NCBI GenBank assembly: GCA_014607495.2
Contig: CP053156.1
Span: forward strand, 7,130,001 to 7,194,000
Length of the DNA stretch: 64,000 bases
Reading direction: 5' to 3'
DNA from: Carposina sasakii
Lineage: Eukaryota; Arthropoda; Insecta; Lepidoptera; Carposinidae
Under the pieces are notes generated by a model that was given only the letters and a program-made list of their open reading frames with translations, had not been told where the DNA came from and did not search any database. Positions 3,927 to 55,198 of the stretch are shown in pieces (the first letter of the stretch is position 1; the number at the start of each line of letters is the position of its first letter). Position numbers and translations under genes: made by a program.

Positions 3927-3956
3927 CTTAATATTACATTATAATGGAACATACGG

Positions 3957-24261: not shown

Positions 24262-25509
24262 ATAGTGGCCCGCCCTCGCTTCGCTTCGGTACATATAAGT
24301 ACATAGCTACGACTTCATATGTAGATACAGCGGTTTTCATAAATATTTGGAACTCCCGTTGGTCCCCTTCCCGTGGGAATTTCGGGAAATCTGTTCTTAG
24401 AGCTTCCTCGTAGTCCCTAACCTGATTTCAGCTTTGTAAAAATAGCGGTTTTCGAATAATTTGTAATTCCCGTAAGTCCCCTTCCTGTAGGAATTTCGGG
24501 AAATCCGTTCTTAGTGCTCCTCGCAGTCATTATGAACGTACAGGTCAGATTTCAAATTTATATGTATCGCGGTTGTCGTAAAAAAATAATTCCCGTTTGT
24601 CCCCGTCCTGTGGGAATTTCGGGAAATCCGTTCCTAGTGCTTCCTCGGAGTCCCTAATGAACATATAGGTATGCCCAATTTCAGATTCATAAGTGTAGCA
24701 GTTTTCGTAAAAAAATATTTCCCCTTGGTCCCTTTCCCGTGGGAAATTCGGGAAATCCGTTCTTAGTACTTCCTCGAAGTCCCTAATCCAATTTAAGCTT
24801 CATACAAATAGCAGTTGTCGTAAAAAAATTGGAATTCCCGTTTGTCCCCTACCCGTGGGAATTTCGGGAAATGCGTTCTTAGTACTCCCTCGCAGTTCCT
24901 AATGAACATACAGGTCTGATTTTAGCTTCATATATTTTTTGTAAAAAAATTGAATTCCCGTTGGTCCCCTTCCCGTGGGAATTTTGGTAAATCCAACATT
25001 TTTAGTACTTCCTCGTAGTCCATAATCCGATTTCAGCTTCACACAAATAGCGGTGTTCGTAAAAATTTGGAATCCCCGTTTGTCCCCTTCCCGTGGAAAT
25101 TCCAGGAAATCCGTTCTTAGTGCTTCCTCGCAATCCCTAATGAACATATATGCCCAATTTCAGCTCCATATGTATGTCATATGTATAGCGGTTTTCGTAA
25201 AAATTATGATTTCCCGTTTGTCTCCTTCCCATGGGAATTTCGGGAAATCCGTTTTTAGTCCTCCTTCGCTGTCCCCATATGGGGATCATATGCCCGATTT
25301 CAGCTTCATATGTATAGCGGTTTTCGTAAAAAATATAGGTCGCCTTCCCGTGGGAATATCGGGAAATTCCTATAGCCTATGTTCGTCCAGGTCCAATGAG
25401 GATTCTAACGGTTGAAGAATTTTTGAAATCGGTCCAGTAGTTTGGAGCCTATTCGCTGCAAATAAACAAACAAACAATCAAAGTTTACCTCTTTATAATA
25501 TAGTATAGA
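24262..25509 (-). mobile_element. Non-autonomous Helitron-type element with internal ~120-bp array (copy B)
   Basis: The 3' end (plus-strand left) carries the GC-rich CCGCCCTCGCTTCGCTTCGG segment with a degenerate CTAG terminus (CTAT on the element strand). The 5' end (plus-strand right) starts with TC after a host A. Inside I count nine tandem units of ~115-130 bp between about 24330 and 25380. Each starts near CGGTTTTCGTAAAAA and contains TTCCCGTGGGAATTTCGGG. The unit at about 25200-25335 is absent from the copy A counterpart, so array length varies between the copies. It has no coding capacity and would depend on an autonomous Helitron for movement. Confidence 0.82.
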
Positions 25510-25944
25510 TATAGATATAGACAAAACAATAATCACTGCAAATTTAATAAAAACTTTACATTAATAAAATACACGAAAAATCGCGTACTACAAGCTTTTC
25601 TACCCGACTGTGCGACGCAAAAGAGCGGTAATTTGCTATCTGATATGAAATCGAAAGTTCAGTAATAGCAACGCAGTTAACTAAGATACAATTCGTATAG
25701 TTAATTTTGTATACACGATATTGCAACATATTTCGTGATTAGGCCTGACCAGTAAGCGACCAATCCCACGATAAGGAAAACTTGTAACAACTTGGAATAG
25801 ACGTATGAATCAGGATAGGTGAATAATCGCAGCTCATCTGCGAAGGAACAAACAACATGTATCATCAATAATACACCTATCCATATAGTGGTTTCGGAGC
25901 CGATATGAAAATATAGATAGGTAGGCTAGATTAGGATGAAATGG

Positions 25945-26100
25945 GTTTTTTCATATGATGATCTCCGACCGTATTTCGGCCAAGGCGACCAATCTCTATG
26001 GAGATTTTGCCAGGTGTGCAGGAGATATTATAGCGCACAAGTGTGCGCGCAAACACAGATGCACTCCGTTACTTTTCCGTTTTCATATACTCACCTACTT
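25945..26100 (+). repeat. Dispersed repeat D, copy 3 (copy B counterpart of 1000-1150)
   Basis: Essentially identical to the copy A element. Confidence 0.65.
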
Positions 26101-26139
26101 AAGCTAAGAAAATACTTACCTCTGTAATATTGTAAATGA

Positions 26140-26236
26140 CTATGGGCAAAAACCTTCCTATGGCGTAGCCTGTGGCGTGCCCTAGGGGAGACCTACGTCC
26201 AGCAGTGGACTGCGATAGGCTGAAGACGAAGACGAG
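26140..26236 (+). mobile_element. RTE-like LINE 3' fragment (counterpart of 1190-1292)
   Basis: It carries two single-base deletions relative to copy A within CAGTAGCCTTG. Confidence 0.7.
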
Positions 26237-26689
26237 AATATTTTATTACCACATATAACTACTTATTAGTATTTAGTAAGAAGTATTGATCACATTCTAC
26301 TGTTTTTTACAAATTCCCTTTTGCTTTTTAGTCACTCAATATTCGAAGCTCAAAGTAAACTTCCACAGTAATTAAAAATCATCAATTTATATGGTTTACC
26401 TGCAAAATTAATATTACAGGGAGTACAGCCGTTTATGTATGTATGTATGTATGTATATAAAATGTTATATATTTTCCACACTAGTCCAGCCGGACGGATA
26501 GATGATTTATCTCTATATCGGCCGGACCGGGCGCCGGCAATATGCTATGTAAATAACCGGACGGAATGTATAGGAGTGACGGGGCACGGTTTCATAATAA
26601 TAGTATGTTGTTTTTTCTTCATCATAATGTTTAAAATCGATATGGACTTTTATTTTCAAAATACATAGTTCTAATAATCTTTCCGATAG

Positions 26690-26830
26690 TATTTCAGTCA
26701 TGGCAACTAATCTCAATGAAGAATATCCAACTGCACAGGATGTATTAGATACTCGTATAGTGCAAAAGTGTGTGCGCAAACATCACTGCACTCTCTATTC
26801 CTTCAGTCTCATATCCCGAAACTTTTCCAT
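26690..26830 (+). repeat. Dispersed repeat D, copy 4 (counterpart of 1735-1865)
   Basis: It retains TACTCGTA at 26750-26757. Confidence 0.6.
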
Positions 26831-27000
26831 GCATAAACTGCATGTTAATTTATACACATATTTAATTTTAGACTTATCTGTACATGAAACTAATTTAAAA
26901 TCCTACGTGCATACATAAACTTAAACACTTAAACATACATTTATTGGAGTACCTATATACAAGTACATCGGAACTCAGTAGGCACACCTATTCATGCTGC

Positions 27001-27004
<4 letters not shown>

Positions 27005-27032
<28 letters not shown>

Positions 27033-27210
27033 TTCTTTTTTTGCTCATAAACATAGTAGTTACAGATGTTATATTTATAATTTGTCCTTATGTTTAGCCA
27101 GTCAGACTTAGCATGCAAAATATCTACACACAGTAATCTATTAGGTATTTACATTTCTATCATTATACACAGCATAATATATAGTAACTCATAGGTAACA
27201 TAAACATATT
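27005..27210 (-). mobile_element. Retroposon 3' fragment with (TTATC)n tail
   Basis: On the minus strand ~175 bp of AT-rich sequence leads into an A-rich stretch and then (TTATC)n. Copy A retains the microsatellite but lacks most of the body, so this is a structural difference between the copies. No coding sequence is recognisable. Confidence 0.5.
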
Positions 27211-27656
27211 CTATAGAAACCCTTTGTAAACTTTTCATGGACAGTCAAAGTTATTATTAAGGTTAAGAAAACCGAAAGGGGAACATTCACAACACACGTC
27301 TATTAACCTACGGTCAGCTTACTTTGCAAAGTGCAGTGTTACCAACAGTATTTTTTAAACTCCACAAGGTTTTAATTTAAAAAAATCGCTATTCTCACAA
27401 AAATGTATAAGTTAAATACCTATTAAGCAGCAATATACTGATTTACACGATACCTAAAAGATAGATAAATGTTATTTTCAGATAACCGATTTCCTATCTT
27501 CCATCGTATGTTCATAACATATTATTTCATAAAAACCTTGAGTTATTAAATAAGATTCTGGTAATTTTGTTGTTATATATTATATGTTTTTTCTACAAAC
27601 ATTCCCCAATAAAATCACCGTGAAATCTAGAAAACCTGTCAAATTGGCAACACTGT

Positions 27657-27718
27657 GTGCATGAATAATGCACGAGTCTGACCGACATGCCTCAGACTCT
27701 GACGTATGTATTATGCAC
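27657..27718. repeat. Hairpin (counterpart of 2497-2558)
   Basis: Sequence identical to copy A. Confidence 0.45.
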
Positions 27719-28160
27719 CTTTTTAGCTTATTTAGATGTATTTTCACAAAATTTTGGAGTCGTTTGTGATATCATTTCAAAATATTTATACCTTTTAAAG
27801 AAAGAAATGTCCCTTATTTAAAAACTAGCGGCCGCTTACTACTTCTTCCGCGTTTTATCTTTAGGATTCCCGTTTCCGTGGTAATTTGGTTTTTTTTTCC
27901 TTAGTGGACATATACCTACCTACGTTACAAAAGAAAGCCACAGTTTCTACCATTAGGGGTTACGTTTGTAAGTGCGTCTATATGCCAGTCACTGGTAACT
28001 TCTTATATAGCTCGTACATAGTTTCTAGGCAACATAATTAAAAAATAATATTTACCGCCAAATCGAAATGATCAACAAAGAACATCTAAGAACTCTTCAC
28101 GAGCCGTAACTATAAAGTGGAGTCTATAAAGGCGGCATCCGCTCAGCTGAAGGTGTGCTC

Positions 28161-28187
28161 TGTTTACATCGTAAACTAGTGTAAACA
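28161..28187. promoter_or_regulatory. Forkhead-type triplet (counterpart of 3001-3027)
   Basis: TGTTTAC, GTAAACT and GTAAACA at 28161, 28171 and 28181, with the 10-bp spacing preserved. Confidence 0.35.
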
Positions 28188-28432
28188 CGCGGTTCCGCCT
28201 GTCTGCACGCACCTGTTGCCATCGATGTGTCTTCGGGGTATTCTGTTTTTTTTTTTTAAAAAGGGTTATTTTTGTTAATATTTGTGAAATTGGTCTTGCT
28301 ATTTATTCTGGCCTGAAAATGGATAAACTGTCATGCTAGGTCGATAATAACTATGTTTATTGCACTGTTTCATGTTTAAAACTTTAAATTGAATAATATT
28401 TTAAGCCAAACTAAGCTGATAGTGACTAGAGA

Positions 28433-28538
28433 TTATATTATATAGAGATTATAATAGAGCAGAGGTCGTGGGTTCGATTCCCACCCGGGTGAGAAATTTT
28501 TTCCATTTCTTTATTAATAATTTTATGACTAGAGATTA
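28433..28538 (+). mobile_element. SINE A with target duplications (counterpart of 3265-3380)
   Basis: Direct repeats TGACTAGAGATTA lie at 28433-28445 and 28526-28538. Confidence 0.85.
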
Positions 28539-28621
28539 ATTATGACAGTGACTAAACGTAAGGAAAATAAACATTTAAACGTTTTCAATGACAATCCTTT
28601 TACTACATACAGCAAGTAAAT

Positions 28622-28795
28622 AAAATTCGTTACCGGGATTGGCTCACCACTTATTCTCGCCTCTGCAACTCCTGTGAGCCAGGATCAACAGAGGCGACCA
28701 GAAAAATGCATAACAAAGCATAGAAAATCCCGGGGATCTACTAGCGACTATAAAGCATTAAAACTAATAGAAAATCAGAATGTGAAGTATAAAGA
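28622..28795 (+). repeat. Dispersed repeat E (counterpart of 3473-3640)
   Basis: Moderately more different from copy A than its surroundings; for example B has GGCTCACCACTTATTCTCGC. Confidence 0.6.
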
Positions 28796-28805
28796 TAGGT
28801 ATACT

Positions 28806-29081
28806 TAATACGGTCAAGCAAGCTGAAGTGGCAATGGGCAGGGCACATAGCTCGAAGAACTGATGGCCGATGGAGTCGGAAAGTTCTAGAGTGGATACCA
28901 CGTATCGGCAAGCGTAGCGTGGGAAGGCCACCCGCGAGGTGGGCGGACGACCTGGGCAAGGTCGCGGGCGTCGGTTGGATGCAGGCGGATTCCGACCGGT
29001 CGGAGTGGAAGTTGTTGGGGGAGGCATATGTCCAACAGTGGACTTCTCAGGGCTGTAAATGATGAAATGATGATGATGATA
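28806..29081 (+). pseudogene. RTE reverse transcriptase 3' fragment (counterpart of 3651-3926)
   Basis: Same frame as in copy A, with substitutions including QAASDR to QADSDR and WADDLAKV to WADDLGKV. It ends in a (TGA)n tail. Confidence 0.85.
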
Positions 29082-29147
29082 CTAATACTACATTAAGCAC
29101 TGACTGACAATATTATTACCATTGGAACATACGGCTACTTTATGTTA

Positions 29148-29325
29148 TGGTGCAAACATTGATATGATGAATATTGATGTTTGTTTCCAAGTCATGGATG
29201 TTTCTATACTTATCTATGTATTTATATACCGTTGCTTAGTACCCACGACACAAGACCTTATGGATCTTAGTGTGGGATTAGGTCAATGTGTTGTGAAATG
29301 TGTGAATTATATGAAGTAAAAAAAA
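29148..29325 (+). mobile_element. SINE B fragment (counterpart of 4138-4316)
   Basis: Same truncation point; here it directly follows the empty SINE A target. Confidence 0.75.
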
Positions 29326-31343
29326 TGATAAATTGGTCTGGAGACAGATTCGATTGAATTTAACATTTGATTACGAGCATTAGACCAAAGTCCAATTTCC
29401 CAAAGAATGTGATGGGAAGTTTGTTGTACGGAACAAATTTGTTGGCGAATGAACAGCCACAGTGAGGTGTTGAAACTAATTTAAATAAAATTCGTTTTTT
29501 ACTCGACTGTGAGAAAAATAGAGTTATGAACGTTCTATCGCATTTATTCTTGGTGAGCTTAGTCCTTAGAGTGACACTGAGGAGATAGAGGTTTTGATCC
29601 ATGAAACCATACACCACCACGCCAAACCACAAACACCATGTGCTTTTTCTTTCCAATAATTAGTGGATAATGAACTCTTGTTTCCAGTTCTACTTTGCCG
29701 CTGGGTATTAATTAAAAACTAAACTTTCTTTTCCATAGCTTGCCTCCCATATAGATCTATCATCTATACCTACTTATAAAAAAATTATCAATACATCTGT
29801 AACATTACAACGGAGTGCTTCATAAATATTTACGTTAAAATCCAACCTTTTTGCCGTCACCTTGACTTTGTTTACTCAAACCCCCGAACCTACCCCCGAC
29901 AAGACCTTTACTTTACTTTAAACTAAACCTTATGCGTCTGTTATAAGATTTAAAGTTTTTATCTGAAAAAATATGGCGTTTACCTGAAGATGGAGTCTGA
30001 AATGAAGCATTTGGTCGTAAAAATGCTGTAACGTTTTAGATGGAATAATAAATAAGTTTTTGGAATCTATGTAGGTACACCTGGAGCATGTGTTTAAAAT
30101 GGCCGACTACCTAACTTGCTATTAACCTAACATTATAGGTTAAATAATTACATTAAAAATGTATATCACCCATAAATAAATCATCTCTTATTGCCATCCC
30201 ATAATAGCATAAACACAAGACAAACAAATTCAAAGTAGACTCAAACGCACGCCCTTTCCGTCCCAAGACGTCTGCAACACGTCCGACACGGCCCCGGCAC
30301 GGACCCGACACGGCCGGACGCGGTCAGCTTCCGCCTCTTTGCCGATCCTTTGTCCTCCCATACTAATTACCACCAAAGCTAAACGCCTTATCCCATCTCA
30401 GTAAAGTGCATTTTCCCCGCTTGGGGCCTAAATGCCCGGGGCACATATGACCCCTGTAGTTTAGCAGGAAATCTCACTAAGACGAGTCGTATAGTTTTGG
30501 ACAGCGAAGATCGTAAAGTGCCTATTTGAGTTCATGTCCTTAAGGCATGAAAGACTAGATAGTTCGGGACAGGAAATGTTACCTAACTCTCCGCGGTTGT
30601 GTTATGTGCGTTTCTGAGGGTACATAACTACAAACTGTGATGGCTGCTCTTAGATAATGTGGTGGAAGGAAAGAAAGACATAGAGTAATAGAACAGCAAA
30701 GTTTAATTTAACTTCCCCCTGAAGCCCGCCAATCCCGAGCCTAGTCACAGATTTTATACATATCTATACAATGCAATATTTTTGCTTAACTACCACTGCC
30801 TGCTAGTATCCGCCCGCAAGTTCTTAAAAAAATCCCTGCTCCTAATAAACTGCGCTATATAAATAATAAATATATAAATAAATAAATAAATTATCTGTGA
30901 AATTAAACTGAAAATAGCTTAAACCTTGTTTAGAGCTTTTTATTAGTAAGGCCCGTTTCATAAAACAATATTATGTTAACAATGAGCAAATTTAGACTAA
31001 GTAAACGGCGTTTAATCTGGATCCAACTCACTAGGTTTATAGAAACATTAATGTATATTCTGAAACAGGTTTAAAATATCTAAAACCCCCTCAGGTAACC
31101 TTTACCTCACATAATACACGTTTGATCTTAGGCTGCATCCGCACGTCCAGCCGGAAGTAAGCTCCTGTCCACATCCGCCGCTTTGACAATGTCCAAAAGG
31201 TGGACTAAAGAGCCTCGGGGTTAGGAACTTATTGTCCAAAACTCGTGCGGAGTTGAAGAGTATTTTTATTCTTAAGATAAAAATATAATAATGATTGAAG
31301 AATATACAGAGACGTGCAAAAGAAATGTAACCGTAATGACACG
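29326..31343. other. Gene-free stretch, copy B
   Basis: Matches 4317-7291 of copy A minus the Helitron. The empty site AGAAACATTAATG lies at 31041-31053. No genes are supported. Confidence 0.5.
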
Positions 31344-31613
31344 GGGGCAATTCTAGAATTTTTTTGAGCCGAAACGCAACCACTAACGAACCGTTAACGA
31401 AACGCGGTCAGAAGCAATATATACTTACCGCTTGAGTAATAAGGTTTTTAGCACGCATCGGACGCCAGTATGACAGAATAAAAACAAATATCTGTCTCGT
31501 GCTGAAATGTGTCTAATAACGTCACCGTAAAGTAATTATTGCTTTGTTCTGAGCATCTACAACGGTTCCGTTTCGGCTTCGTTCTAACTCGAGACTTTTC
31601 GAGAATTGGCCCC
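31344..31613. mobile_element. MITE-like element (counterpart of 7292-7561)
   Basis: Same imperfect inverted ends; a few substitutions. Confidence 0.6.
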
Positions 31614-32849
31614 ATGGTATACCTAATACATTTTAACGTATGTACATATTCACAGAACTGTGTTCCCAAAATAGTGTAGCCAGAGTTGCAGAATCACGAA
31701 GGAGATCGTTACAGTAACGAACGCGCTAAATTCAAGTTCCCGTTGGAGGAAATGTTTTGATGACGAACCTTTATCGATTCGATCGACGAATAATTTTACT
31801 TTGTACAAACATATTCATTCACCATTATCCTCATAAGCCTTTTAAGGTTCTGTAGGGTGATGGAACACCAGCAAAATCTATGAGATTCTATAATGTGACT
31901 ATTACGTTGCTATACGTCAAAACGTACTTGCCTCACTGCATTCGCAATGTACAACACTTCTTTGGATTCATTAGTATTCTCCCCTACTAGACATATATTT
32001 GACCGGATGAAAAACAACAAAGATGAAAACAGACAAGTCAATTTAGTATCAAAATCATTCATGTATATTTCAAGGCGCAGCTTATTTATTTAAAGGTAAG
32101 ACTCTTATGTATCATTACATAGTTATCCAGCTTTAAAATCTTATAATCCTAACCCAAACCGTAACAAAAACTAGTAAGTAGGGCTGGTAAAAACTAACGT
32201 GTAAGCATTTATGGCATTAGCATTACAAGTTATGTGATGTAAATAAAAACAAACAGAATCAAAAATCTGTGAAAATTCAATGGATTCAACGTGCGAGACA
32301 GAAAAATTCGTATTATGTCAATTTTTAAAGAATTTTCGTTCTCACTTTCCATATGAGACGGATGTCTTATACTACATCAATAAAAATTTCTTATTTGCTT
32401 GACAATAATATAACATGTGGCAGCCCTAGCCTGGCAGGAACTACTCCTACGTATTTGCAATACCGATAGGATTAGAGCTGCGCACAAATAGACGAAACGT
32501 TTAAGTTTCACTTCTCAACAAGCGAAAACTGTCTTGTCCTGAACTACAGGCGATTTAGATTTCACAGTGCCCAGATTTAAGACACATTGCGGATGTCTTG
32601 GTGAACGGCATGAACTGCCAAGTTGTTCGGATCTGGACTTTGGTCACACACTGAGTGTGGAAACTTCTTGAACAAACTCGAAGGTCTAAGATACGAATAG
32701 GTATATGGTCTCCACGATTTGATATGAATATCCTGGATTTGATTGAATCTCTTTGATAGGTTGCAGCAGTAGGCGATATATAGATATCATCGACAGATAT
32801 GGTATATAGGCAGGTGATGAAGCGAGTTGGGAAACAAAGAAATCAATAT

Positions 32850-32992
32850 ATGTAGAGTAGAAATTGTTTGCTTGGGTTTGCTGGAAGAAATCTCTTAAAG
32901 AGATAAGCTTGCCTTTGTACACTCTCTGTGTAACTATGCTATGTCACTATATTGTCTAATGTTTGTGTGTACAATAAAGAATACAAGTACCT
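32850..32992 (+). mobile_element. Retroposon 3' tail (counterpart of 8800-8945)
   Basis: It reads TGTGTGTACAATAAAG without the extra CGTA of copy A. Confidence 0.6.
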
Positions 32993-33192
32993 AACACTGA
33001 CCATATTATGTGGCCTGTATGCTGAGTGTGAGTTGAGTCGATCACTTTAACGTAAAGTACCTAGCTAATCATATTATGACATGCTGTCGATGTCGTAATG
33101 CAATAAAAGTAAGAGTAACGACAGAATGTAATACGTTGAATATAAAAGCTCGGCCGCTGCTGTCATCGCTTGTAGTTAAGAAATATTTTTTA

Positions 33193-33402
33193 TTATGGTT
33201 TATAACGAATATCTACTCCGTTTTCCTTCCACCAAGAAAATAAGCTTAAGCAACCACGACAACTAACATTACTAATAAAAAGAGCACCATCCATCCCGCC
33301 TAGCAGTGTGTAGCATAACCTCAAGAAGTATCTAACAGGTCCCTCTATTTCTACATACTCGCGCATTGTCTTTCCGGACCAACTTGGAACATTTATGCTC
33401 AT
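33193..33402 (-). CDS. Hypothetical 69-residue open frame (counterpart of 9148-9357)
   Basis: The translation is identical to that in copy A. See that entry; whether it is coding is unproven. Confidence 0.2.
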   Translation of the reverse strand: MSINVPSWSGKTMREYVEIEGPVRYFLRLCYTLLGGMDGALFISNVSCRGCLSLFSWWKENGVDIRYKP

Positions 33403-33645
33403 CCAGTATTCACTTAGTTAAAGATAACTGAGGTCTAAATAACTGTTCTATATTTAACAACGATATCGTTGCAATCTGAATCAAAATGAGTGATACCGTA
33501 GCTCGTGCTATGTGTATACTACGGTAGGTATCTAAAATATGCTATTTTACTTTATGCCTATACCTATCTATATATTGCTGACTTTATCTATATAGGTATT
33601 ATTTATATTTTCTTACTAATTTTAACATGAGTTAGTTAATATAAC

Positions 33646-33989
33646 GCTCAAGAAGCGTTTGAAATGTGGTGCTATTGCCATATGCTTCGAATCAGTTGGG
33701 TGCAGAAGGTTTCCAATGAGATAGTACTCCGGCACGTCTACAAATACCGAGACCGAACCGTGAAAAAGAAAAAAGTTAGTTATCTAGGTCATATTTTACG
33801 GCATGATAGATAACAACTGCTTTAACTTATCATGATGGGCAAAGACAGGAGAAAAGACTCGTCGGAAGACGAAAGAAATCTTGGCTGCGAAACATTCGTG
33901 AGTGGACGAGAATAGCTAATCTGGAGGAGCTGTTCCGAATTTCCAGGGTCAAGTCTGCATTTAGTAAGCTGACGGCAGACCTCCAGTAA
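33646..33989 (+). pseudogene. RTE subfamily 3 fragment (counterpart of 9601-9944)
   Basis: Same premature stop and frameshift; a few substitutions (for example AATCTGGAGG for AATGTGGAGG). The (AAG)n that follows is one unit longer. Confidence 0.85.
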
Positions 33990-34041
33990 TGGAGTGCCAC
34001 TACAAGAAGAAGAAGAAGTTAATATAAATACAATCTTAATA

Positions 34042-34200
34042 TACTGGGTTTGTCCCACCACTCCTTCCCGTTTCTACAACTCCTGTAAACCAGGATTACC
34101 GGACAGAGGCAACCAAAATTGCATTAAAGCATAGAAAATCTCGGGAAATCTACCAAGCGACCATGTATTTAAACTATTAGAAATGACAGAATGTAGAGAT
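34042..34200 (+). repeat. Dispersed repeat E (counterpart of 9994-10150)
   Basis: Near-identical to copy A. Confidence 0.6.
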
Positions 34201-34690
34201 CATCAGGAAGAAGTAAGAATTTTAATATACAAATAAGTAATCTGTAAATGAAATAATAATTTAAAATAGCAATCTGGGTAGGCACTTCAGATCCACACTC
34301 CTCGGACCGGAATCTGTCGGGAGCGGGCGGACGCAACCAATCAAAGTTTCAGACTTTCTTAGTAATCAATTACTGGGCTCGGCAAGGCCAGGAAGGTCGG
34401 TGTGCTAATTGTGGACCACTTCGGGATCCTGTGCCACTAATGTAGGTATGTTTTGTTATATAAATCAAGTTATAGTATAGAGTCTATTTACATTATGAGA
34501 AGTACAATAAGGTAATTTTAATTTTATAGTGACTTTTCTCGAGAATGCGTTATAAACCGAACATTATAAAATTTCAGTGCCTCTGCCTATGCATACATAC
34601 ATTACCAGTTTTAGGTCTCTAAGATCAGCAGTTTAGGCCTTGCGTTGAACCGTCAGTCACTGATTCAGCACAAAGCATTTTACATGACAA

Positions 34691-35072
34691 TATACAGGGT
34701 GTGTGTGACAGCCAGGCAAATACTGAGATACTGAACAAGTACTATTGTTTTGAGTTATACGACAGTGTTATTACTCGCAGGATTTTTTTATATTTGATTA
34801 TACGCAATGTTTGCTTTCCGCGCCAATTGTAACGGGCGATCCTGTGACTAGTTAAATAGGCTTATCGGTTATTTTGTGATCCATTGCGGTTTTTGGATCA
34901 CTCTTGACTCTCCTTTGGGGTTGATCAGTTAATTGAAGCTTTTTTGTAAGCAACTTTTTTTTAAAATCATCCAAACATTAAAACTTTATACTTATGTCAT
35001 TATTTAAGGCCTACTTAAATGAACCAAGTCACCATATCAATATTTGCCTGGCTATCACAAACACCCTGTATA
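34691..35072. mobile_element. MITE with 32-bp inverted ends, internally deleted
   Basis: Arms lie at 34691-34722 and 35041-35072. Relative to 10643-11099 the A-rich interior is ~90 bp shorter, and a 17-bp GC-rich segment near 34825 is present only here. Confidence 0.88.
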
Positions 35073-35499
35073 GATTAACTATATTTTGAAAGCTAAAACA
35101 TAATTTGATATATCATTTATGTTACTGGCGAAGGCATTATTGTAGGTACATTATTGTCCAATTTTCGCACATACAACGCCACATTACTTCTATTATTTTG
35201 ATTAAATTCAAAATGCACACTCCTTACAGCATCACCTACCCTAATCTTAAAGTATCGGCGCAAGGTAGCCACATCGGCTGTGACCGGCGGGCCGTGAACA
35301 ACTATCCCAGATTAATTAAATTCTGCGGAACTCGCTCGCTTTACGGCGACTCGACCTGTGGCTGCGGATTGCTAACATTGATTACTTGCTTGTTCGGACT
35401 TGATGGGCAAATGGAATTACTTAGTAAAATACACACTCGTAGAGTCGAAGTATGAATGTACTTTAATGGTAGATATTGTATATAGTAATACGTATCATA

Positions 35500-35722
35500 C
35501 TACAGCTGCTTCTCTTCCCGGACATACTGTACAAGTCAGTAGAGGGACAAGAGGGTCTTGGTATTTTGCAGACGATGGGCTGACCACCTGTCACTACTAA
35601 CGGAACTTGTACATCTCAACTATACCCTCAAAATTGGTCAGAAGTGGCACCACGTGGTTCTATCGGTCCTTGGTGCTTTGCCCACCCCGTAAGGGATAAA
35701 GGCGTGATTAAATATTTATGTA
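35500..35722 (+). mobile_element. Dispersed repeat C (counterpart of 11524-11752)
   Basis: Same family and position, few substitutions. Confidence 0.75.
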
Positions 35723-35884
35723 TATATAGTAACATTGTATACATATACACACGGGTGTATTCCCAAAATGTGGTAGCTAGAACTGCAGGATCATAAAGGA
35801 GATCCTTACAATACTTTCGTTTCTAGCTAGTACAGTTAATTGATAATACCTTTTTGTAACCTATGTTCTATGCATATGCATGCA

Positions 35885-36046
35885 TGCATGCATATAATCA
35901 CGCCTTTATCCCTTACGGGGTAGGCAGAGCACCAAGGGCCGATAGAACCACATGGTGCCACTTCTGACCAATTTTGAGGGTATAGTTGAGATGTACAAGT
36001 TCGGTTAGTAGTGACAGATGGTCAGCCCATCGCCTATGTTCCTATA
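35885..36046 (-). mobile_element. Dispersed repeat C, inverted partner
   Basis: Counterpart of 11907-12064, forming the same inverted pair. Confidence 0.75.
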
Positions 36047-36181
36047 TCTATTTATATTTGTGCTCGTACATGTACAATATTAGTTAGCCCTATATTTGGA
36101 AAAAAAAACATTAAAATGTTGAAAAAGGGAACTTTGACAGTACAACTGGTTATTCAATTTTTTCCCGTGAGAACCCTCACC

Positions 36182-36371
36182 GGCCCCCTTATTACCTAAC
36201 TAGCAAAAGCAAAGCGATAGCGAAAATTGTACAAAAATCGCTGATTGCTTGTCAAATTCATATTACGTAAAATAAATTTCAAAGGAACTTTGACATTTCT
36301 AGGCGAATATTGTACAATTTTCGCTATCGCTTGCTTCGGCTTTGCTATTGCTTTTACGTAATCAGGGGGCC
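36182..36371. mobile_element. 190-bp MITE-like foldback (counterpart of 12208-12397)
   Basis: Same length and inverted arms. Confidence 0.8.
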
Positions 36372-38705
36372 AAGTAGCATAATTACTTTTCGATGGTTTA
36401 GAAGAATCGGAGTAAGTAAAGGAATAATGATATGCCACTATCACAAATAGAAGGTAAGAACAATATCCGTCTCAAGTTGTCTCAAGTAAGATTTATATAA
36501 GGCATAAATCATTTAAAACGACTGGTGATTCTCCTGCTAACGGTCCATAAGTAGGTACCTCTACCTACGCCTGTAGAAGTTAATGGGGGTCAGAGAATCT
36601 AACAAGTTTAAAAGCGACAACGAAGTTCGCTACACTTAATCACGTCATTTGGAATAATGAAGGCTTCCTTATTGGAGAGAATGTTTCGATATCTTAGCGA
36701 ACTTGAATATCTCTCGTAAAATTGAATCATTGTTTAAGTCTTATTCCGATGTGTTTCTGTAAGATATTTGCGAAACAAACCTAAAATTTCCAAGGAGACT
36801 TGATTTTGTCCCTTCTCAGTTCTATCCATTTTCTTCTATTGGTAAAACTTTCCTCCCAAAGATAAAAATAAGCGATTGAAACAAGAATGATTACATACAA
36901 ACCATCTTAAACTTCAAGAGCAACATTACACTCAAATAGAAATACCTACAAATGTATGAACTACTAACTTAGCTAGACAAAAATAAAATTAATTACGCAT
37001 AATTATTAATACTACACCTGCCTTGCCATACAAATCTAACTGACCACTATAAATATCTTTAATTCTAGGAATTATATGAGGAAAAACTTTAATATATTGA
37101 CGTACACTATATTACCCAAGATAGATGTACATTATATTACATGACGCCGACCGACATTCTACGAAATGACCGTACCTCTTGGTACAAGAGAGGCGCAGAA
37201 ATGAAGACCATTATAATTATAGAGAGCTTAGGTCATAATTTTGAAGTCGACATAGCAACGCCCTCTGTAGGCGATATAGTAATCTATGGAAGCAATGGAT
37301 AGTCTTTAGAAATGTTAATGGGATTACTGTGAAAGTTAATCTACAAAATCATTTTTATATAGATCGAATTCAAACTTTCTTTTTTACAAGACAAACATTA
37401 AGGTCTCTAAGGCCAGGTATTGCAGGTATATGCAACGGTATGTATGTATAGATGCAATTATTACTCGAAAACAAACTTTATTCACTATCATCATACTAAT
37501 TTTGCACTTTACCATAATCCGAACATAGAACCTGTGGTGCATCAGGCAGGATTTACTACCAACTGTATAAATCAATTATCAATATAAATTAGATAATAGC
37601 CTTTATTATTATGAGCCATGATGTAGGACAGTTTCATTGCCTGATCATGGCTCTATGCCAGTCCAAATCTGATCATCTTGGGTCATTCAGTTTACGTACC
37701 TTACATTTCGTGATGATGTCACCGTCTGTCGAGGCGCCGACGGTGGCCATATCAACTGAACTGAACCATTGTTCAGTTCCTGATGTCATTGGTCATTTAG
37801 ACTTTATGACATATTTAGAACTATGTCGGTACTATGTTGAGTAACTGATGGATTTGTTGGTGACATACTTGTAGGTGGAAATATTTATTTTGTTTTTAGA
37901 GTTCACTGTAAACTTTTCCGACTTACTGTTGTTCTTCTAGATTTACATTTGTAAAAGGTTTCATTATATAAGCCGTTCAAATATAAAATGATATTTGTTT
38001 TATAATTATTTGTTCTACTCTACGTATGTAGGTATATGACAGAAGAACAAAGGAATTTTTTGGTAAATAACTTTTTAAGGCCGACTTTCGCCATGGTCAC
38101 ATAGCATATCTGGAAGAGAAATTTGATGCTGTCTTACTCCAAAACTTGATCAAAATAGAGACAGGCTATCTGACCATTGAAAAAGTCAGCCCATAATTTT
38201 ATTACTGTTGTTTTTAAACCAGGCTGTAGGTCTTTCGCGATCCTAATAGTTCTGACACCAAATTTTCGGGACCGTAGCCGTTGTGTATGTAGGTATGTAT
38301 GCATTTCAATATCAGAAGACTCCACAAGATAAATAACGACTGGACAACTACCTAAAGCCGATGCGTTAATTAACCGTATGTCTGTACGTATGTTCCACAC
38401 CAATAAAAGAATAAGTGTGTACTCTACACATGGGAGATGTTCTCACGCCGGTATGCGAGACAAAGATTAGGTGAATGCAGAAGTGAATTTATGTATTAAA
38501 TGGGATAGGTTATTTTCGATGGTAATTTATTTCATCATAAGACGGTCTATCGAATAGGCAAATAGGTTAAAAGTCAACACTCAGCTAAGCAGCAGCGTCT
38601 GGGATATGGTCGTAGACGTCTACTATAGGAAAAAATGTCATCTTCTAATCCGAATTTTTAAACATGGTTTCTGCAAATTTTTTAACATAAACAACATATA
38701 GTTTT

Positions 38706-39047
38706 ATGTTAAATACAATTTTTATAAAATACAAAATTCTTACTCTTGCATCAATGTACATATTGGAGACGTGCAAATTTGTGAGAAAATATCCAAATTT
38801 CTTCCACAAACAAGGCGACCAACTACGGCGATACCCTACTAGGTTTAAAAATAAACTAATCTTGCCAAAATCTCACTTAAAATTGCACAGCAATAGCCCA
38901 AATGTAATGGCAATAAAAATCTACAACCACATCCCTGAAACATTAAAAGAACTGAAAAAAGACAAACATTTTAGCACGGGATTGAAACAGATACTGATAA
39001 GCAAAAGTTATTACGATTTAAGTGAATTTTTTCGGGATAAAATTTGA
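38706..39047 (+). pseudogene. LINE reverse transcriptase C-terminus (counterpart of 14763-15098)
   Basis: 113 residues, with several substitutions near the start (MLNTIFIKYKILTLASMYIL). It ends EFFRDKI because one T fewer in the run near the stop shifts the last codons. Confidence 0.75.
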
Positions 39048-40195
39048 CGCACTTCATGGACAAATAATAAAATAAAATAACAAACTAATTAATTCTAACT
39101 TACTAATAAATAATAAAACAATATACTTAACTCATAAATTATAGACATTTAAACAAGTACAATAAAAGAATTTAATTACTTAATTACATTGACATTTTAA
39201 TTCGATTTAATTACATTATTACATTGACATTTTGATTTGCTATCTTTCCTTTCCGTACTTACCTACATAAAAAATATAAATCCAGTCGTGACTTAAAAAT
39301 GAATAAAATATTATAAATATACTACCTACTACAAGAAGTACATGATAATATGTAATAAATAAATAAAAAAATATAATTAACATGACGAATGGTACAATTA
39401 AAATTAAACCTTAAACGAACCCGAAATTAACTATGTAATGCTCCAGTCTGCCTACCACACTAAAAACATGTTGCTGTGTCCAACAGGGTCATATGTTATC
39501 TGTAAATTATTAATTAATGTAGTAAACTTTAGGAGAATAGAAAAACATAGCTGGCAACACTGCGGTCCGGCAGGCGACATGGTGATACAATCTCCTTCCA
39601 CGGGTCTGTCATATCCTTTAGTTAGGATTACAAAAATTAAAGTATTCTTTGTTACAACCTAATTTAACGTTGTTTAATTTAAAAGCTACAACAATTAAGA
39701 TCCTTAACTACATATGAATGCAATAAATTATTGAGTACTGTAAAATGTATTTAACATAAAACTATATAGCGTAGACCTTCCATAATTTGAACGTTCCTTC
39801 ATTCCCTTCTGTACCAGCATAGTGTTTGCCAGTATCACGGCAGTATCGAGGTCGCATATGCGTCTGTGAATCACATCACACGTTCGTTACCCGCTAATGT
39901 ATTTCATTACACTCCACGGTAGGTATTGTAGGTAAAACATGTGCGTTTTTGTGTGGCGGCCGATCTGTACTTACCTAGTGTATGTACCTATAGGTATAGG
40001 TTCTTGTTGATGTTATAATGTTGTTAGCAGAAATGTGGTAGGTGGCAAGATATAGCTTTTCATGGTATTTTAATACTTTATACTTATTATAAGTTACTAG
40101 TGACACGTCATTACTATTAGAGTCTAAGGTGGTAGACTCATCCCTTATACGTGACACTTACTCGTAACAGACAAATTAGTGAATGATTATACTCG

Positions 40196-40571
40196 TACAG
40201 GATGTTTTTTCGTTGCCACCCTTAACGAAGGGTACGTACTCTATATGTAGATCAAATAAAGTAAGTTTATGCCAAAAAAATGCTGGGAAACGATGTAATT
40301 TTTTATGTTTTTTTTTTTTATTACTTGATCGGGCGAAATTTAGTGTGCAGTGTTTTTTTCATAGACAGATATTGATTATATCTCGTAAAAAAATCTTGCT
40401 AGGCGCGACTATGTGCATTTATGCAGAAAAACGCAGTCTATTTACTCAATTTTGGACCCTAATCTTGGGAACCAGACGCTTCCCATGTATGCTTCCATGG
40501 AGAAAAATGATCGTGATGATGAGGAGATTCCGTAGTTTTTGGGAACGTTGACGACCAAAAATCACCCTGTA
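40196..40571. mobile_element. MITE-like element with ACAGGRTG ends, copy B
   Basis: Longer interior than copy A, including GATGTAATTTTTTATG and a T-rich run near 40308. TACTCGTA octamers lie at its left junction (40190-40197) and just beyond its right end (40589-40596); copy A has plain TA at both points. Confidence 0.75.
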
Positions 40572-42263
40572 TGTCCACATTTGAGTATTACTCGTATCTG
40601 TCTAGGAAAAAACAGCGTGTATTACATTTAACAATTCAAAAGATATTATCGTAAGGCTCTGAAAACTATATGAGTAGGTACACGTGATCATAGGATAGGA
40701 AGGATGAATGCACAGTGTAAACCACTGATCTTGGAAACCTACATAAAAGTTGGATGATGTGCTCTTTGTGTGATTTAGGCATCTGAAGAAACTATTTCCC
40801 AGGAGAACCACAAGACAGAAAATAACGGGAAATCTAAAGTATATAATATAATCTAGTGACGGAACAGACAAACGAGCAACTTTTTTATAAACAAGTTCCA
40901 AGGAGAGCAACAACATTCAATGACTGTGTTATCCGTCTGCGTACTCATAGATCCTGCAGCATCTCGTCAATTACATTACGTTCCACTTCAAACCAGTTAG
41001 ATACGCTTTAAATTGAAACGGTTACAAAATATTAATCAAAATGGCCGCCTTCCATTTGTAATGTTAGCTCTGGTGTTATCTGTGTGGAAATTAAAAGAAG
41101 TATTAGGATGGCATAAGGATTTCACTGAATATGTTCTTGAATTTGTTAACTTTCATTTAACATGTGATGGATTAGGATAAGTACAGAAAGAACTTAAATA
41201 TTGTCATACCCTTAAACAATTCAATTTTATAATCGTACTAAAAAGTATCATTTTCATTTTTTTTTAACGTATTTCATGCCATAAGTCTCCACCAACAACG
41301 ACCTGCACATGACCAGTACTTGGTGATTACTAAAATTATAATCAAAATAGAAAAAATACGAATAGAAACATGCAACATAAAATAAACCCCAGGTAAATGA
41401 AAATGTATCTTGATTATATTTTATATCTTAAAGGTAAGCAGCACTATTCTGACCAACGTTACAGAAATGTTACAACACAATTAACTATGTTATTTTCTTA
41501 ATAACATTCTCACTTCTATTATCTTCAGTCTTAACCACAGTCGCCATACAGCTGGACAGAAAAAATCGACATACTCGTATACCGTAGTAAAATTAACAGT
41601 GTCTTAACTCCGAAGTAGCAAGTGTCGCTTTTCTGGTATAAACAAACATAACGACGGATAAAGAATCTAACGGAAAATTATATATAGTCATTTTACAATA
41701 GATCTTTAAGAGCACAGCAGACACTTGAAGTTCAATTGGATCGTTCCCGTAACTGTTATTAAAATTGAAAATGGATTGTACAGGTTTCTGGTGTCGTAGA
41801 TAAACCTATTAAAAACCAGACAAGTTCCAGGCAGTTAATTTGATTGGACCTTCAATACCCGTTTCTGCTTGAACAGTTTGTCTAAGGTTAGTTTTAAATA
41901 GTTCCCTGTTCCTTTAGCTAAACAACCTTTTCTTGCTGTTTTCTCTAGGCTATGTCATCTACTAGCTACCTATCATCGCGCCGTGACTCAACCCTCTGTT
42001 TATTGCGCTGTATGGAACATGGACGTATCTGGCACGCACACCGCTTAGCTCACAGCATAGTATTGAGTAGGTGTCTTTCAGGAACATATCGCGTTTATAA
42101 ATAATGATGTAATATTAAATCTTATGTATGATTTTGTGGAAAGTCACATTTTCAATTATCCTAAAACTGACAATAGAACATTGATTGTATGTATGTAAGA
42201 ATTGGCATTAATTTGTATAGAAAAATATTTGCCATACCTTGTCAGTCAAATTGAATATATAAA

Positions 42264-42336
42264 ATTATTAATAAAGAATAGGAAAAAATTCCTCACCCGG
42301 GTGGGAATCGAACCCACGACCTCTGCATTCCGTGCC
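42264..42336 (-). mobile_element. SINE A fragment (counterpart of 18145-18220)
   Basis: Same truncated B-box half and tail. Confidence 0.8.
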
Positions 42337-43119
42337 ATATAATGTAATATAATTTTATTCATCAAACCTATTAGTTACATAATAGAATATTCATCAGCTA
42401 AGTAAGGCACATTTATTATTGAGCAGCTTTCGTATAGCGCAATTACAATAACGCGCAAAAAGATATCGAAATCACCCATCTTAAGCATAGCTGCTGAAAT
42501 AAATGTCGACTCCACCGTATCCCCTATCCCTAGGTACCCAGCAATTAACAGTTCGGCGGGTCAGCGTGGACAGCACGCATACCGGTCAATTCCTCCAATT
42601 GCGACGTGGGAACACTCTGAGTCACCTCATCAGTATGAATTGAACCCTTTTGAACCGCGCCCCAGCCGGTGATAGTGCGCTCGTTGAGGCAATGAAAGTT
42701 GTTATGGCAATTAAAAAGCAAGGTTTTTATTGTATAATTATAATGTGTGGTAACATGTCGGGTTAAGGGAAAAATATTGTGGTGGTTCATTGCATATTAG
42801 ATACTTTAAAGGCCGTTTATGCAATTAATATTTAAAAAAAACTTATGGCGGACCGGATTCTAAATTAAACCACATGTATGTGTTATGATGTTTTTTTGGC
42901 GTAACATATCTGTGATCTCATAAATATAGGTAATAATAACTTGTTATACCATATTTTACAGTCATAATAGTCATATTACTTACATAGCATTGAAAAAAAA
43001 CCAGTATCAATTCCACAATGCATTTAACAAACCTGAACGAACCTTATTCTTCACCTCGGATGCACAAAGATCTAATTACACAATCCCCTTTTCAGACGTA
43101 ATTTTTTAAAATCGCTCTT

Positions 43120-44463
43120 CTTACACATAAATCGTGGAGCTTCCCCTAAAAATCGGACCGACAAATAGTCTTACAGACGCAATCCGAGGACGATCCCGCA
43201 GGTATGCCGACAAATTGGCCTTAATAAAATACTCCGTCTAATTAACGAGAGGGAGATGCTGGTCTCATGGAGGAAGGATGTAAAAGAGTTGAGGTACATA
43301 CTCACAATATGATTGGATATCACACGTATCGGAAAAATTCATTCGGTGAAAAGGCAGCTTTAAAATCCACTTTGCTCATACACTACTGATCCGTTAGTAC
43401 TTACACGCTGTCACAAAAATAAAGCATTATCACCTTCTCTGGCCCTCTCAAAGATATACATCATCATCATTATCATCATCAGCCTATTGCAATCCACTGC
43501 TGGACGTAGGCATCCCCCAATGCACGTCACAAGACTGTCATGGGGGGTATTTGCCCATAGTCACCACGCTGGGCAGGCGGATTGGTGACCGCAATTTTTA
43601 CTTTGGACTATTTTGTCAACACGGTAGGAAAATAGCTCATTATAGAGACCCTTTTCACAAATTGAAGAGTACAGTGCAGTGACGTCACACAGTTACAGAA
43701 TGAACGTATCTCCTCTTCATACTTCCTTTACGAGTAAAACTCGAGGAAAAATAATAGAAGCACCTTCTTAGATGGAAAGTGATCTGCCGTAATTGTCATT
43801 AGGGGCCCAAACTCCCGGCTATTTATAATCGGATGTTGACTTGAGGTTCCCGAAATGTTTTACAATTTTATTTAAACTTGAGTTATTTTGTAAGGGAATT
43901 AAAAAATATTGAAGGAAGGAGGAATTAGGTGCTATTCTAATTAGTATATAGTAAGTATATATTGTGCTAATTATCTTATTACATTTAATTGTAATACCGG
44001 TATTATTATTGGTAAATGACCCAAAAACGTTTAATAATATACATTCTAAATTCATGCAACCACCAACGGAATTTGATTCCAAGTATCAAAAAATGACTAT
44101 CCCTCCTCCCTATCTCTGTACCTCATTTCATCCAATTGCCAAACTTATCAGACATCATCAACCTTTGGCCAGTAGTTTTAAAGAATAATAAATCAAAGAT
44201 GGCCGCCCCACCTCAACAACTAAACAAACAGGTCCGCGATGGTATCTCAGTGATACCATCGTCCGGTCCTCGTGATTTATGCGACCAGTTAATCCCACTA
44301 TTTACTAGTTTTAGTGGAAGGTAAAGAGGGCCTTTTTCCTGAAGCCCTTCGGCCTACAATGAACATGGTGTAAGATACAAGCGAGCGCAGGTAAATATAT
44401 GTGGTGAAGTATTTTTTGGAAATGATAAGTTCGAAAAAGTTAGACAGATCTTAGATATTCGCT
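43120..44463. other. Single-copy stretch right of copy B
   Basis: An RTE-like fragment is listed separately at 43460-43610. TACGAGTA lies at 43729-43736. No gene is supported. Confidence 0.5.
43460..43610 (-). mobile_element. RTE-like LINE 3' fragment (subfamily 2)
   Basis: On the minus strand it reads CACCAATCCGCCTGCCCAGC through GTCCAGCAGTGGATTGCAAT to a GATGATGATG tail. 5'-truncated and frame-broken. Confidence 0.75.
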
Positions 44464-44830: not shown

Positions 44831-47800
44831 GTTAACATAACTACAAGTTTTATTATCATAGTTTAGTTAAAAAATCTTTATCGTATATTGACATTGCCTA
44901 AAAGCTAAAAATAAATTGTATTCTCACAAAAGTTCTGTTTTTTTGTAAAAAATAACTCATTAATATTAGTGAGTAGGCCAATGAACCCACATACGATAAA
45001 GGTACAGAGCATTATTTACGCTAACGCTCCTCTGACCTCAGGTTGTCTAATTTTTGGGTTGTTTAACCTTTTTTGTTTGGTCCTCTCGAGATACTCGTAT
45101 AAGCCACAGAGATTTATCGTCTTCTCTTCACGTTAGCATACTAATTCTAGTAGTCTTTCAGCCGCAAAGAGAGCATAAGATGAATCAGCGTCACCCGCTT
45201 GCGCTTATAGCTTTCCCCCGCTCAGTCACTAAAGACGGTTATCAGTCAGTCGGTGTGATGTATGTGAGGGTCCTCACTCCATTGCTACTGATAATTATCT
45301 ACTCCACTCTGTTGTTGCACCAACTTTTAATTAGCCACTTGGCGATGGACAAGATGGCATCAAGTGGAATGTACTAGAAGTTACAGTTGTTATGTAAAAG
45401 GTCAATGTCTGTGCGTCCCACCGATGAATGAGGCTAAGAGTCACGTGACATACTGCATGTGAACATACCATCACCAGTCTACTTAGGTCAAGAGGGTCCT
45501 TATATCTACCAATTAAAAAACAGCCTTGCTGGCGATTTTTATAAAAAGCGGAATTTCTTTAAGCACACCTGCTTTATACCTACTTACTTTGTTTTCATTT
45601 ACTTGGAGTCGCTGCCATTTTGCTTTACTTTACCCATAGAATAACGAGTGCCTTATTACTTATTATTCTGTGACTTTCCCTTCCTTCATATTACAAAAAA
45701 AATATATGGTAGGTATATCAACATCACTATGTACAGAGCACTAATGGTGGGTGGTCGAGAGTTAACATAACAGATTTCTAAAACTAACCCACAGAATCTG
45801 CACAAAAAGCTCATTCGTAGCCCACAGCTAGCGTGCAAGACAGATCTGCGCTCGGCTCCATGCAGAACGGTTTAATAACGCGCTCCGTATTGCGTCGAGT
45901 GCACATTCTGAGCGTTCTGCGACATCGCTCCAAATTCCCTATTGCTCGGAAATCGTTCACTCTGTCTTGATACACTGCCTAAAGTATGGGGTATAGTGAG
46001 GGGAAACTCTCACATTACAGTATGTATGTGAGAGAGTTCAAAAAGGTTCGTGCTTACCCTACCGTTATGTAGCATATGAACACCCGTCATCCCTAAAAAT
46101 TGAGTAAATGAATGTAAATTATTCACCGACTTATCAGTAAGCAGCCTATTTTAACTCCCACGCGGTAAAGGCAGAGCCCATCCTGCTTTTCGAATACAAA
46201 CATAAAGGATACAAAGGAAGAATTAGGTATAAGAATAAACTTATAAATACGTAATTAGACAAATCGGATACTAATTGTAACAGCTTAATATAATGAATAT
46301 TATCACAGCAGGTCACACACACAATTTCATTTACTCTTTTAGGTCCATACATGAGAAATTTAATCCTTACGAACCTTTCTATTCAAATGCTATTACATAC
46401 ATGTGCTAATAATTTTGAAATTCAAACCTTACTGTACCACAAACTTTACTATTCAAATGCTATGTGTGGGAGCCACAGTAAAATGATTTATCTCTCCACA
46501 CAGATGCACCTCCTACACACCTGCATACAGTGTGCATGTATGCATGCGTGCTGTCATCTGCTGACCACTTTATTGCAAGGAAGTCTTTTCCAAGTGATTT
46601 TTAACTTCGCGCGGTTGGTCGTTAAGGGGGCTTGGAACAATGCAATTTTGTAAGATAAATCGATTTTGGAATACTCTGACAGAATAAGTTTATTGGTATT
46701 GTTTCCTGTAAAGTACTCTTTTTCGATTTACCGAATTACTACAAAACCGCGTCTAAAGGCACACACTATTTAAAAATGATATTTGAATATGAAATGTACA
46801 AAAATATTGGAAGTTTAGATTATATAATGTTTCCTTACGTAGGTAGAACTTGTTAAGTTTATCCAGTGGCGAGGTTTTCGCTGCAGAAATCTTTTCAAGC
46901 TAACCGAAGAATCAAGTGAAACAAACTATATACAGTACGTTTACTATACTTCATAAATAATATTCTATCATACAGATCAACAATAGTAAATATTAAAGTG
47001 TTTATAGTTATTGCCACTACAGTTTGGATGTATCTAACAGCCACACCGCCCGGGAGCAAGTGCCAGTAATTACGAACCAATCTCAGTCGACAGCCGAGGG
47101 AGGATCGACTCTATTGTACTGGCCGATAAACATTTGCGCATCGATTTTTAAAACATTATAGTTGGCTAGTTTTAACCTCGTATTTTTAGATATAGCGTGA
47201 TAAAAGGAGGGAAATGACGCTTTATGAATTATACTTCACTGAATTTCAAGCCATAGATTTTACACTAGGTTGACGAATTTTTATATTTTATTACTTATAC
47301 ACTACCTTGTGTGAAGAATGGGAACAGGGCAGGAAGAAAAAAACTACTTTATAAGTACATCAGGATAAATATGAACTTTATGGTCAAGCGAACAATTTAA
47401 CATAATCTTAACATCATCTAGCAAAAATTTAATGAAACAGATCCTGACTTTGCATAAATAAATGCAACCTACTTCTCTACATCATCACGCAAATTAATTA
47501 ATTTCTTTATAGCAGCCCTAAATGTGCCTATCCGGCCGCTTCTCCTCGCGGTCACCTGAGCGGCGCCGCTCCGGCGGGGTCTCCCCTCGTAATTAACAAC
47601 ACGGCCCACGGCACCACGTGACTTGTGACGTGCTGATTTACTGTCTCATATTTTGAATGAGTGGACTGAAAATGGGGACCTAAATCACGGCTTGGAAATA
47701 CATTTTGATAGTGGACTACATGACATTCTCATCATAAATTAATATGCACACAAGAACCAATAAATAGCAATAGGATCACCCGATATAATTGGCGCCGAAA

Positions 47801-52899: not shown

Positions 52900-53520
52900 G
52901 AAATCGCTAATATTGTAACGAGGCTATAAATAGCCCGTGAAAAAATGCAGTAAAAATTAAACAAACTCAAATAAGTTCGCACATAAAATAACTCTGGAAT
53001 GGCAGTTAGCGGCAATTTATTACCGGTCGAACATTACCTACAATCGGCCAACGATATTTTGATGGTCTTCATAAAATCGCATTTGGACTCCGCTTTACAG
53101 TTTGCGAAATGAATAAAAACGATCCATCAATTCGAATTCAGCGCAACTTTCACCGGACGGAAAATCGATACGAAATTAGCTAATGGAAACTTGATAGGCG
53201 ACAAAAAAGCGAATCCCGCAAGCCCCCGTAAGCGCATTCGCAACAATAAATCTCGGCTTTCTCTCTGGGCCGACAGATGGCGTGCCCTCCCTTTACAGGT
53301 AACTTTACACCCGCACAACATTGGAGCGCTTTACGATTTTTTGTATGGCATAATTTAGAGCGATGCAAGCGCTTAGTCGCCAAGTTAAATGCATTAGACA
53401 CGTACAATGGAATATTCAATTATGCTGACAAGGTAGGGGTCATGTGCGCTTTATCCGTGCGCGTTGCAGCCACAGCGTACTCGTATGAATGGTATGAACG
53501 CAAACTTCGGGATTAGCGCA
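52900..53520. promoter_or_regulatory. Candidate conserved noncoding block
   Basis: About 600 bp of balanced-composition sequence without repeats, dense in homeodomain-type cores (GCAATTTATTACCGG, CGAAATTAGCTAATGG, GGCATAATTTAGAGCG). Frames on both strands are broken and do not resemble a protein. The texture is that of insect developmental enhancers, inferred by eye only. TACTCGTA lies at 53478-53485. Confidence 0.3.
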
Positions 53521-54582: not shown

Positions 54583-55198
54583 GATATGCACACTAAGATA
54601 TATTTAAGATAGTTATAGGGATTGTCCACTGTCTGTGTGTACAATAAAGAAAACAAAATATGTTTCTTACTTAGGTATCGAGTAATCATATAGTGTCATC
54701 TTTTCACCTGTCCATTAATTTTTTTTTTATTTAGATAGCAGTTACATAGGTCATACATCACGATCACAAGTTGAATATTTTTGCGATGTTAGCTAGTACT
54801 CCTATTTAAATACTGGCAAATACTCGTAATAACGGTGTTATTATAAAAGAGCGCCTAAAGTTAGACTCGTTTTAAATATGTCATTTGACAGTAAAATTTT
54901 GGAAATGTTTCGCTTAAATGATGCTTATATTCTTTTGTTATAACACCGTAACTATTTACTATATAAACCAAAAACACGTTAATGTTTTTAAATTTTGAAC
55001 GTAATGTCTATGTCCTTTGCGAAAAAAATCGTAACCACATCGTCAACTTGAAAGCCATCCCCGCGGGTTGATTGTGATAGTCATTACCAGGGGTTAACGG
55101 TTTAAACAGAATTATGTTTTTACGAGCCGCGTCTCTGGCCGTTATGCATAACAATCATCTGTAGGCCGAAAACTGATTGTTTCTGAGGTGGATTGTAA
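54583..55198. other. Unannotated stretch
   Basis: A retroposon-like AATAAAG end lies at about 54625-54655 and TACTCGTA at 54821-54828. Nothing else is supported. Confidence 0.45.

Follow-up and report, generated by a model that had tools for sequence, protein, structure and literature searches.

CTCG insertions at TA sites of the Carposina sasakii genome as probable excision scars of mariner transposons

The window analysed here, a 64,000-nucleotide stretch of the Carposina sasakii genome (assembly GCA_014607495.2, contig CP053156.1, positions 7,130,001 to 7,194,000), holds two closely related copies, A and B, on either side of a run of N. Positions 24966-43119 of B match 1-19014 of A, and 19433-24845 match, as three segments with 97-99% identity, the sequence that precedes the window (C9:7124487-7130000), the first segment beginning at the gap edge; the duplicated span is C9:7124487-7149015 versus 7149433-7173119. 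Tandem contigs that overlap by ~24 kb at a gap resemble unmerged haplotypes, and A and B are therefore probably two haplotypes left in tandem at an assembly gap, a false duplication, with the differences between them probably allelic; the alternative is a true tandem duplication whose join lies within the gap. A Pfam scan of nine open frames of the window gave only sub-threshold matches to the GAIN domain, in two related frames (14748-15098 and 38691-39047; E values of 0.0012 and 0.0069 respectively), and Rfam gave two tRNAs. The arrangement is as follows:

1-19015, plus strand: probable haplotype A, the end of one contig (homology to B extends to 19014; the N run begins at 19016)
19016-19432, no strand: run of N in the sequence, the contig join
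19433-43119, plus strand: probable haplotype B, the A-overlapping part at the start of the next contig, from matches to A

Over 22,939 aligned bases, A and B differ by 459 substitutions, 66 of them within a tandem repeat that makes up the initial 500 bases of B, and by 93 internal gaps. A preliminary description of this DNA had reported four identical insertions of the word TACTCGTA in B, each at a site where A has only TA between matching flanks, and all four were located as claimed. TACTCG makes up 4 of the 9 six-base indels of the main A/B alignment, with a 5.3 kb extension of that alignment adding a single further six-base indel, GATATA. In total, six sites carrying the insertion (here termed scars) are private to one haplotype, five in B and one in A, with the scar core responsible for 6 of the 93 internal gaps, and four are common to both (1796, 13518, 20840, and 20858). 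The recurrence of one hexamer, argued earlier to be beyond chance, is borne out by the count of TACTCGTA in the window, which is 15 on both strands against 1.92 expected, a number attained by none of 100 shuffles of the window. The individual occurrences are:

40159-40166, plus strand: scar TACTCGTA in B only; TA in A at 16195
40190-40197, plus strand: scar TACTCGTA in B only; TA in A at 16220
40589-40596, plus strand: scar TACTCGTA in B only; TA in A at 16544
41572-41579, plus strand: scar TACTCGTA in B only; TA in A at 17464
8117-8124, minus strand: scar in the opposite orientation (TACGAGTA on the plus strand) in A only; B has TA beside a length change of AA
23862-23873, plus strand: compound scar TATGTACTCGTA in B only; the corresponding site of the A haplotype (L030) is TA
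1796-1803 (A) and 26750-26757 (its counterpart in B), plus strand: scar word common to A and B, from the A/B alignment
13518-13525, plus strand: shared scar word; B reads TACTCGAA, one base changed
20840-20847, minus strand: scar word in common with the A haplotype (C9:7126012)
20858-20865, minus strand: scar word in common with the A haplotype (C9:7126030)
43729-43736, minus strand: same word, beyond the A/B overlap and unpolarised, from the word count of the window
45092-45099, plus strand: same word, unpolarised, from the word count
53478-53485, plus strand: same word, unpolarised, from the word count
54821-54828, plus strand: same word, unpolarised, from the word count

At 8117-8124 the aligner draws a four-base gap owing to the AA length change adjoining the TA of B, and the compound scar at 23862-23873 is a ten-base gap against A. 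The last TA of the scar at 40190-40197 doubles as the left TA of an adjoining TA-flanked repeat copy (40198-40569), which starts with CAGGATG and ends with ACCCTG; words of this repeat's family lead the list of repeated TA-centred words in a 200 kb sample (10 kb from each of 20 chromosomes).

The direction of change was derived from copies of repeats. At site 1 of a high-copy repeat (pattern TAAAGTA-N{1,16}-TAAGTTTATG, 119 matches, with 8 for the reversed-pattern control), the 17 four-base cores among the 100 matches listed comprise CTCG (9), CGAG (6), AAGG (1), and TAGG (1), so that CTCG/CGAG accounts for 15 of 17. At site 2 of the same repeat (pattern CCCAGGTA-N{1,16}-TATGCTTCC, 44 matches, all listed, with none for the control), CTCG/CGAG accounts for 12 of 13 (CGAG 8, CTCG 4, CTAG 1). 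Pooled, 27 of the 30 listed four-base insertions are CTCG or CGAG, in both orientations, and the check proposed in the preliminary description, over-representation of this core at TA, was carried out on repeat copies and on two near-identical pairs. Uninserted copies of the repeat in the sample have TA at site 1 (11 copies) and site 2 (8 copies), and the insertions are therefore gains in both orientations, which bears out the earlier proposal that TA becomes TA-CTCG-TA with the TA duplicated and rejects loss as the direction of change. The identity of the core at many unrelated sites likewise rejects local templating. Three individual repeat insertions were compared with other copies of their repeats. 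For L011:1039, all seven matching stretches lack the insert and five of the seven have TA at that place, and for L010:435 both stretches without the insert have TA. For L021:106, the one exception to the TA target with TA duplication, none of 12 matching stretches without the insert reads TA (GA in 10, a gap in two); a TA target would not lead one to expect this, barring an earlier change in that copy.

Repeat sites 1 and 2 carry further, shorter insertions. A second class, TA to TACCTA/TAGGTA, has the core CC/GG in 47 of 73 listed two-base cores, and was seen at position 10691 of the window (A versus B), in L031/L032 near base 1165, and at both repeat sites; no 6-mer of the 200 kb sample is stronger than TACCTA (261 versus 114), and this class predicts another TA transposon with CC...GG ends, for which no source element was found. 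A TACCTA insertion in B at 39985-39990 creates TACCTATAGGTA, and 4 indels between repeat copies or between A and B have a CCTA/TAGG core. A weaker class with the core CA/TG (10 of the 73 listed two-base cores) is also present at 23862-23865 of the window and at repeat sites 1 and 2, and this core is what the CAGGGTG-ended, TA-flanked repeats, several of which lie in the sample, would leave.

The abundance of the word extends throughout the assembly (399,040,036 bases in 31 contigs). Genome-wide, TACTCGTA occurs 81,143 times (40,504 + 40,639), compared with 9,134 (4,525 + 4,609) for the reversed-word control, an excess of ~72,000. In the 200 kb sample it occurs 52 times against 6.0 expected from an order-2 model, which ranks it above every other TANNNNTA word there. 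The half-words show no such excess, with CTCGTA and TACTCG found outside the whole word 78 and 61 times in ~255 kb against 74 and 81 expected respectively, so that only the complete word is in excess. The flanks of 72 listed sites, judged by eye, are diverse, and a larger common element around the word was rejected on the same listing, the only shared flanks being those of nested words and of two arms in L013. These arms belong to a long inverted repeat (L013:9630-10000) with TACTCGTA within both, and ACTCG stands in place of that word in a related copy of the repeat in L020. Scanning the sample for inverted repeats brought up these two arms but no repeated CTCG/CGAG element. Of eight flank positions tested symmetrically, the position next to TA deviates most from other TAs, with a purine before and a pyrimidine after the scar (chi-square 18.6, 3 df).

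An element with matching ends was revealed by a search for mariner transposase (PF01359), in which 150 of 370 candidates were scored. Dozens of candidates tie exactly, at 85.6 or 87.9 bits, as expected of young copies, and four among the rows listed have an internal stop. Two copies fetched from each score group represent two families, and all four are flanked by TA on both sides and carry CGAGGG at both ends (CGAGGG...CCCTCG), with ends that read CGAGGGCTGTTTGATAAGTC in one family and, in the second, CGAGGGTGCATTTTTATATTCG on one side and CGAGGGGGCGTTTTTAAGTTCG on the opposite side. The copies span 1,262-1,297 bases, with open frames of 349 or 351 amino acids, and one protein checked from each family shows the DD34D arrangement, with 34 residues separating catalytic aspartates two and three. 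These two proteins are 51% identical, and for one protein the best match among solved structures is the Mos1 transposase (PDB 3hos; E = 3.1e-48), over nearly the whole length. In size (~1.3 kb), TA duplication, inverted ends, and DD34D transposase these elements are mariners, and the four terminal bases of either end placed between two TAs are exactly TACGAGTA or TACTCGTA, so that the scar core equals the end of the genome's own element in either orientation.

We therefore consider the insertions to be excision scars of mariner transposons, with a probability of roughly 0.9. A mariner with CGAGGG...CCCTCG ends would enter a TA and duplicate it; on its exit, joining of the break would retain four bases from one transposon end between the two TAs, giving TACGAGTA, or TACTCGTA from the other end, and leaving the site six bases longer than when empty. 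The basis for this reading is the gain at TA in both orientations, with a fixed core, together with open-frame, TA-flanked mariners with matching ends, and it is these mariners, or short related elements that share their ends, that would have made the scars through cut-and-paste excision and end joining. The preliminary description offered either the footprint of a TA-targeting transposon or a templated micro-insertion, of which the footprint is supported by the mariner ends and the core spectrum while local templating falls away, and where it knew of no named process yielding this word, mariner excision would yield it.

Known members of the group offer close parallels. According to the cited passages, Tc1/mariner elements and their relatives (Sleeping Beauty, ISY100, and Passer) target TA, duplicate it, and leave a few terminal bases between the two TAs (PMC7827188, PMC2170065, PMC9976928), with cleavage in the superfamily two to three bases inside the end (PMC2170065), and Passer footprints of 0-4 bases, described as like those of ZB and Sleeping Beauty (PMC9976928). 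The scars described here share the TA target, its duplication, and the retained terminal bases, but are almost exclusively of four bases, which lies within the 0-4 range, whereas two to three bases are typical, though not defining. Three-base words (TACGATA/TATCGTA) number 55 against 43 expected. Rpmar0, an irritans mariner of Rhodnius prolixus, likewise has TA with CGAGGG ends and a length of ~1.3 kb in the passages cited, but its 8,041 copies (PMC4678618) far exceed our estimate for the mariners here; the words “footprint” and “excision” are both absent from the main text of that paper (PMC4678618). Among the matches listed from the open-access literature, outside which most subscription journals lie, the passages returned held no report of TACTCGTA as a scar and no parallel to the scar-to-element ratio. 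The Mos1 transposase is homologous to the mariner protein found here, with a different end sequence. Mos1 leaves three-base footprints. Moth DNA was also looked for among bacterial and viral sequences, using a retroelement protein and a repeat word, which gave one weak match to a viral contig (L001), left out of the analysis. Mariner excision itself is a known process, and what is unusual here is the four-base uniformity and the ratio of scars to elements.

Unlike the Tc1/mariner elements described, the mariners found here, estimated at a couple of hundred, stand against tens of thousands of scars. The word TACGAGGG occurs 3,877 times genome-wide (1,922 + 1,955), compared with 4,306 (2,118 + 2,188) for its control. 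On C1 up to 10.06 Mb, five of seven transposase hits have a forward TACGAGGG on one side and a reverse one on the other, spanning 1,295-1,301 bases, which scales to a rough estimate of ~200 full-length mariners with perfect ends in the genome, excluding those with changed ends. The number of scars thus appears to lie far above the number of mariners, with a ratio of ~37:1 even if every TACGAGGG is taken as an element end, and of ~360:1 by the estimate of ~200. No element still in place at a scar site was found in the A/B or C1 pairs, and a count of filled sites using a 13-base flank, which is too short, gave 144 against a control of 138. This scarcity of mariner ends, with TACGAGGG at control level, and the unusual uniformity of the scars both speak against excision. 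It is possible, though in our view rather unlikely, that scars outpace ordinary insertion and excision, with mariners quitting nearly every site that they enter (~200 elements for tens of thousands of visits), or with the transposase depositing the four-base end at a bare TA without complete insertion.

The strongest rival to excision proposes that a transposase or other enzyme puts the four-base end directly into a bare TA where no full element was ever present. The rarity of element ends, the very uniform product, and the half-words without excess would all suit such a reaction, but ordinary excision by the mariners found needs no new chemistry, and we regard direct insertion as improbable. 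We know of no reaction in which an enzyme deposits a four-base end at a bare TA.

Scars also occur within scars. Nested words of the form TACKMGTACKMGTA are present at 476 places, compared with 46 for the control, and the 50 listed comprise 26 in the same orientation, 12 in opposite orientation, and 12 in which the core is CTAG or CGCG. Scaled by the 38 of these 50 that are pure CTCG/CGAG pairs, nested scars would number ~362, against ~305 expected on the assumption that TAs within scars are no different as targets from TAs elsewhere. The surplus of the same orientation hints at some tandem slippage, with the nested scars of opposite orientation rejecting slippage as the sole cause.

With regard to age, words one mismatch from TACTCGTA show no excess in number (159 versus 185-191 expected), where long accumulation followed by neutral decay should leave an excess of the order of that of the scars. 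A second duplicate pair, at 40-50 kb versus 77-87 kb of C1, differs by only 18 substitutions in 9,986 bases (0.18%), and a TA in one copy is matched by TACGAGTA in its partner; ~40 bases further along, the partner reads TA and the first copy TAGGTA. Of three further stretches compared in this pair, two are free of scar differences, with 10 substitutions in 9,988 bases and 54 in 3,990 respectively. The surrounding regions (C1:36-60 kb versus 73-97 kb; L031-L036) form a near-identical pair, 0.1-1.4% apart, and the fetched stretches contain no N. The lack of a one-mismatch excess, together with a scar difference in a pair 0.18% apart, indicates from sequence comparison that scar formation is recent. 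It is presumably continuing now, and these mariners probably still move.

These observations also bear on the proposal that TACTCGTA is an old selected motif of which A lost copies through deletion between two TAs. The word is very common, and TA...TA does offer a two-base microhomology for such deletion, but the gain at TA shown by repeat copies and the presence of private copies in both haplotypes make this origin highly improbable; the lack of one-mismatch words points the same way, although purifying selection on an intact motif would give a similar result. An assembly or polishing artefact, suggested by A and B being tandem contigs at a gap and probably a false duplication, is equally implausible given that the word is in excess both across the sample of 20 chromosomes and at particular TA positions in repeats from many chromosomes, and equals the tip of the genome's own mariner.

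If the scar count is right, past transpositions could be counted singly in a natural genome, including events for which the element is gone, with the potential to yield direct estimates of the rate and age of mariner transposition. Excision scars would then constitute a recognisable class of short indels in this species, and counts of elements may greatly understate transposon activity.
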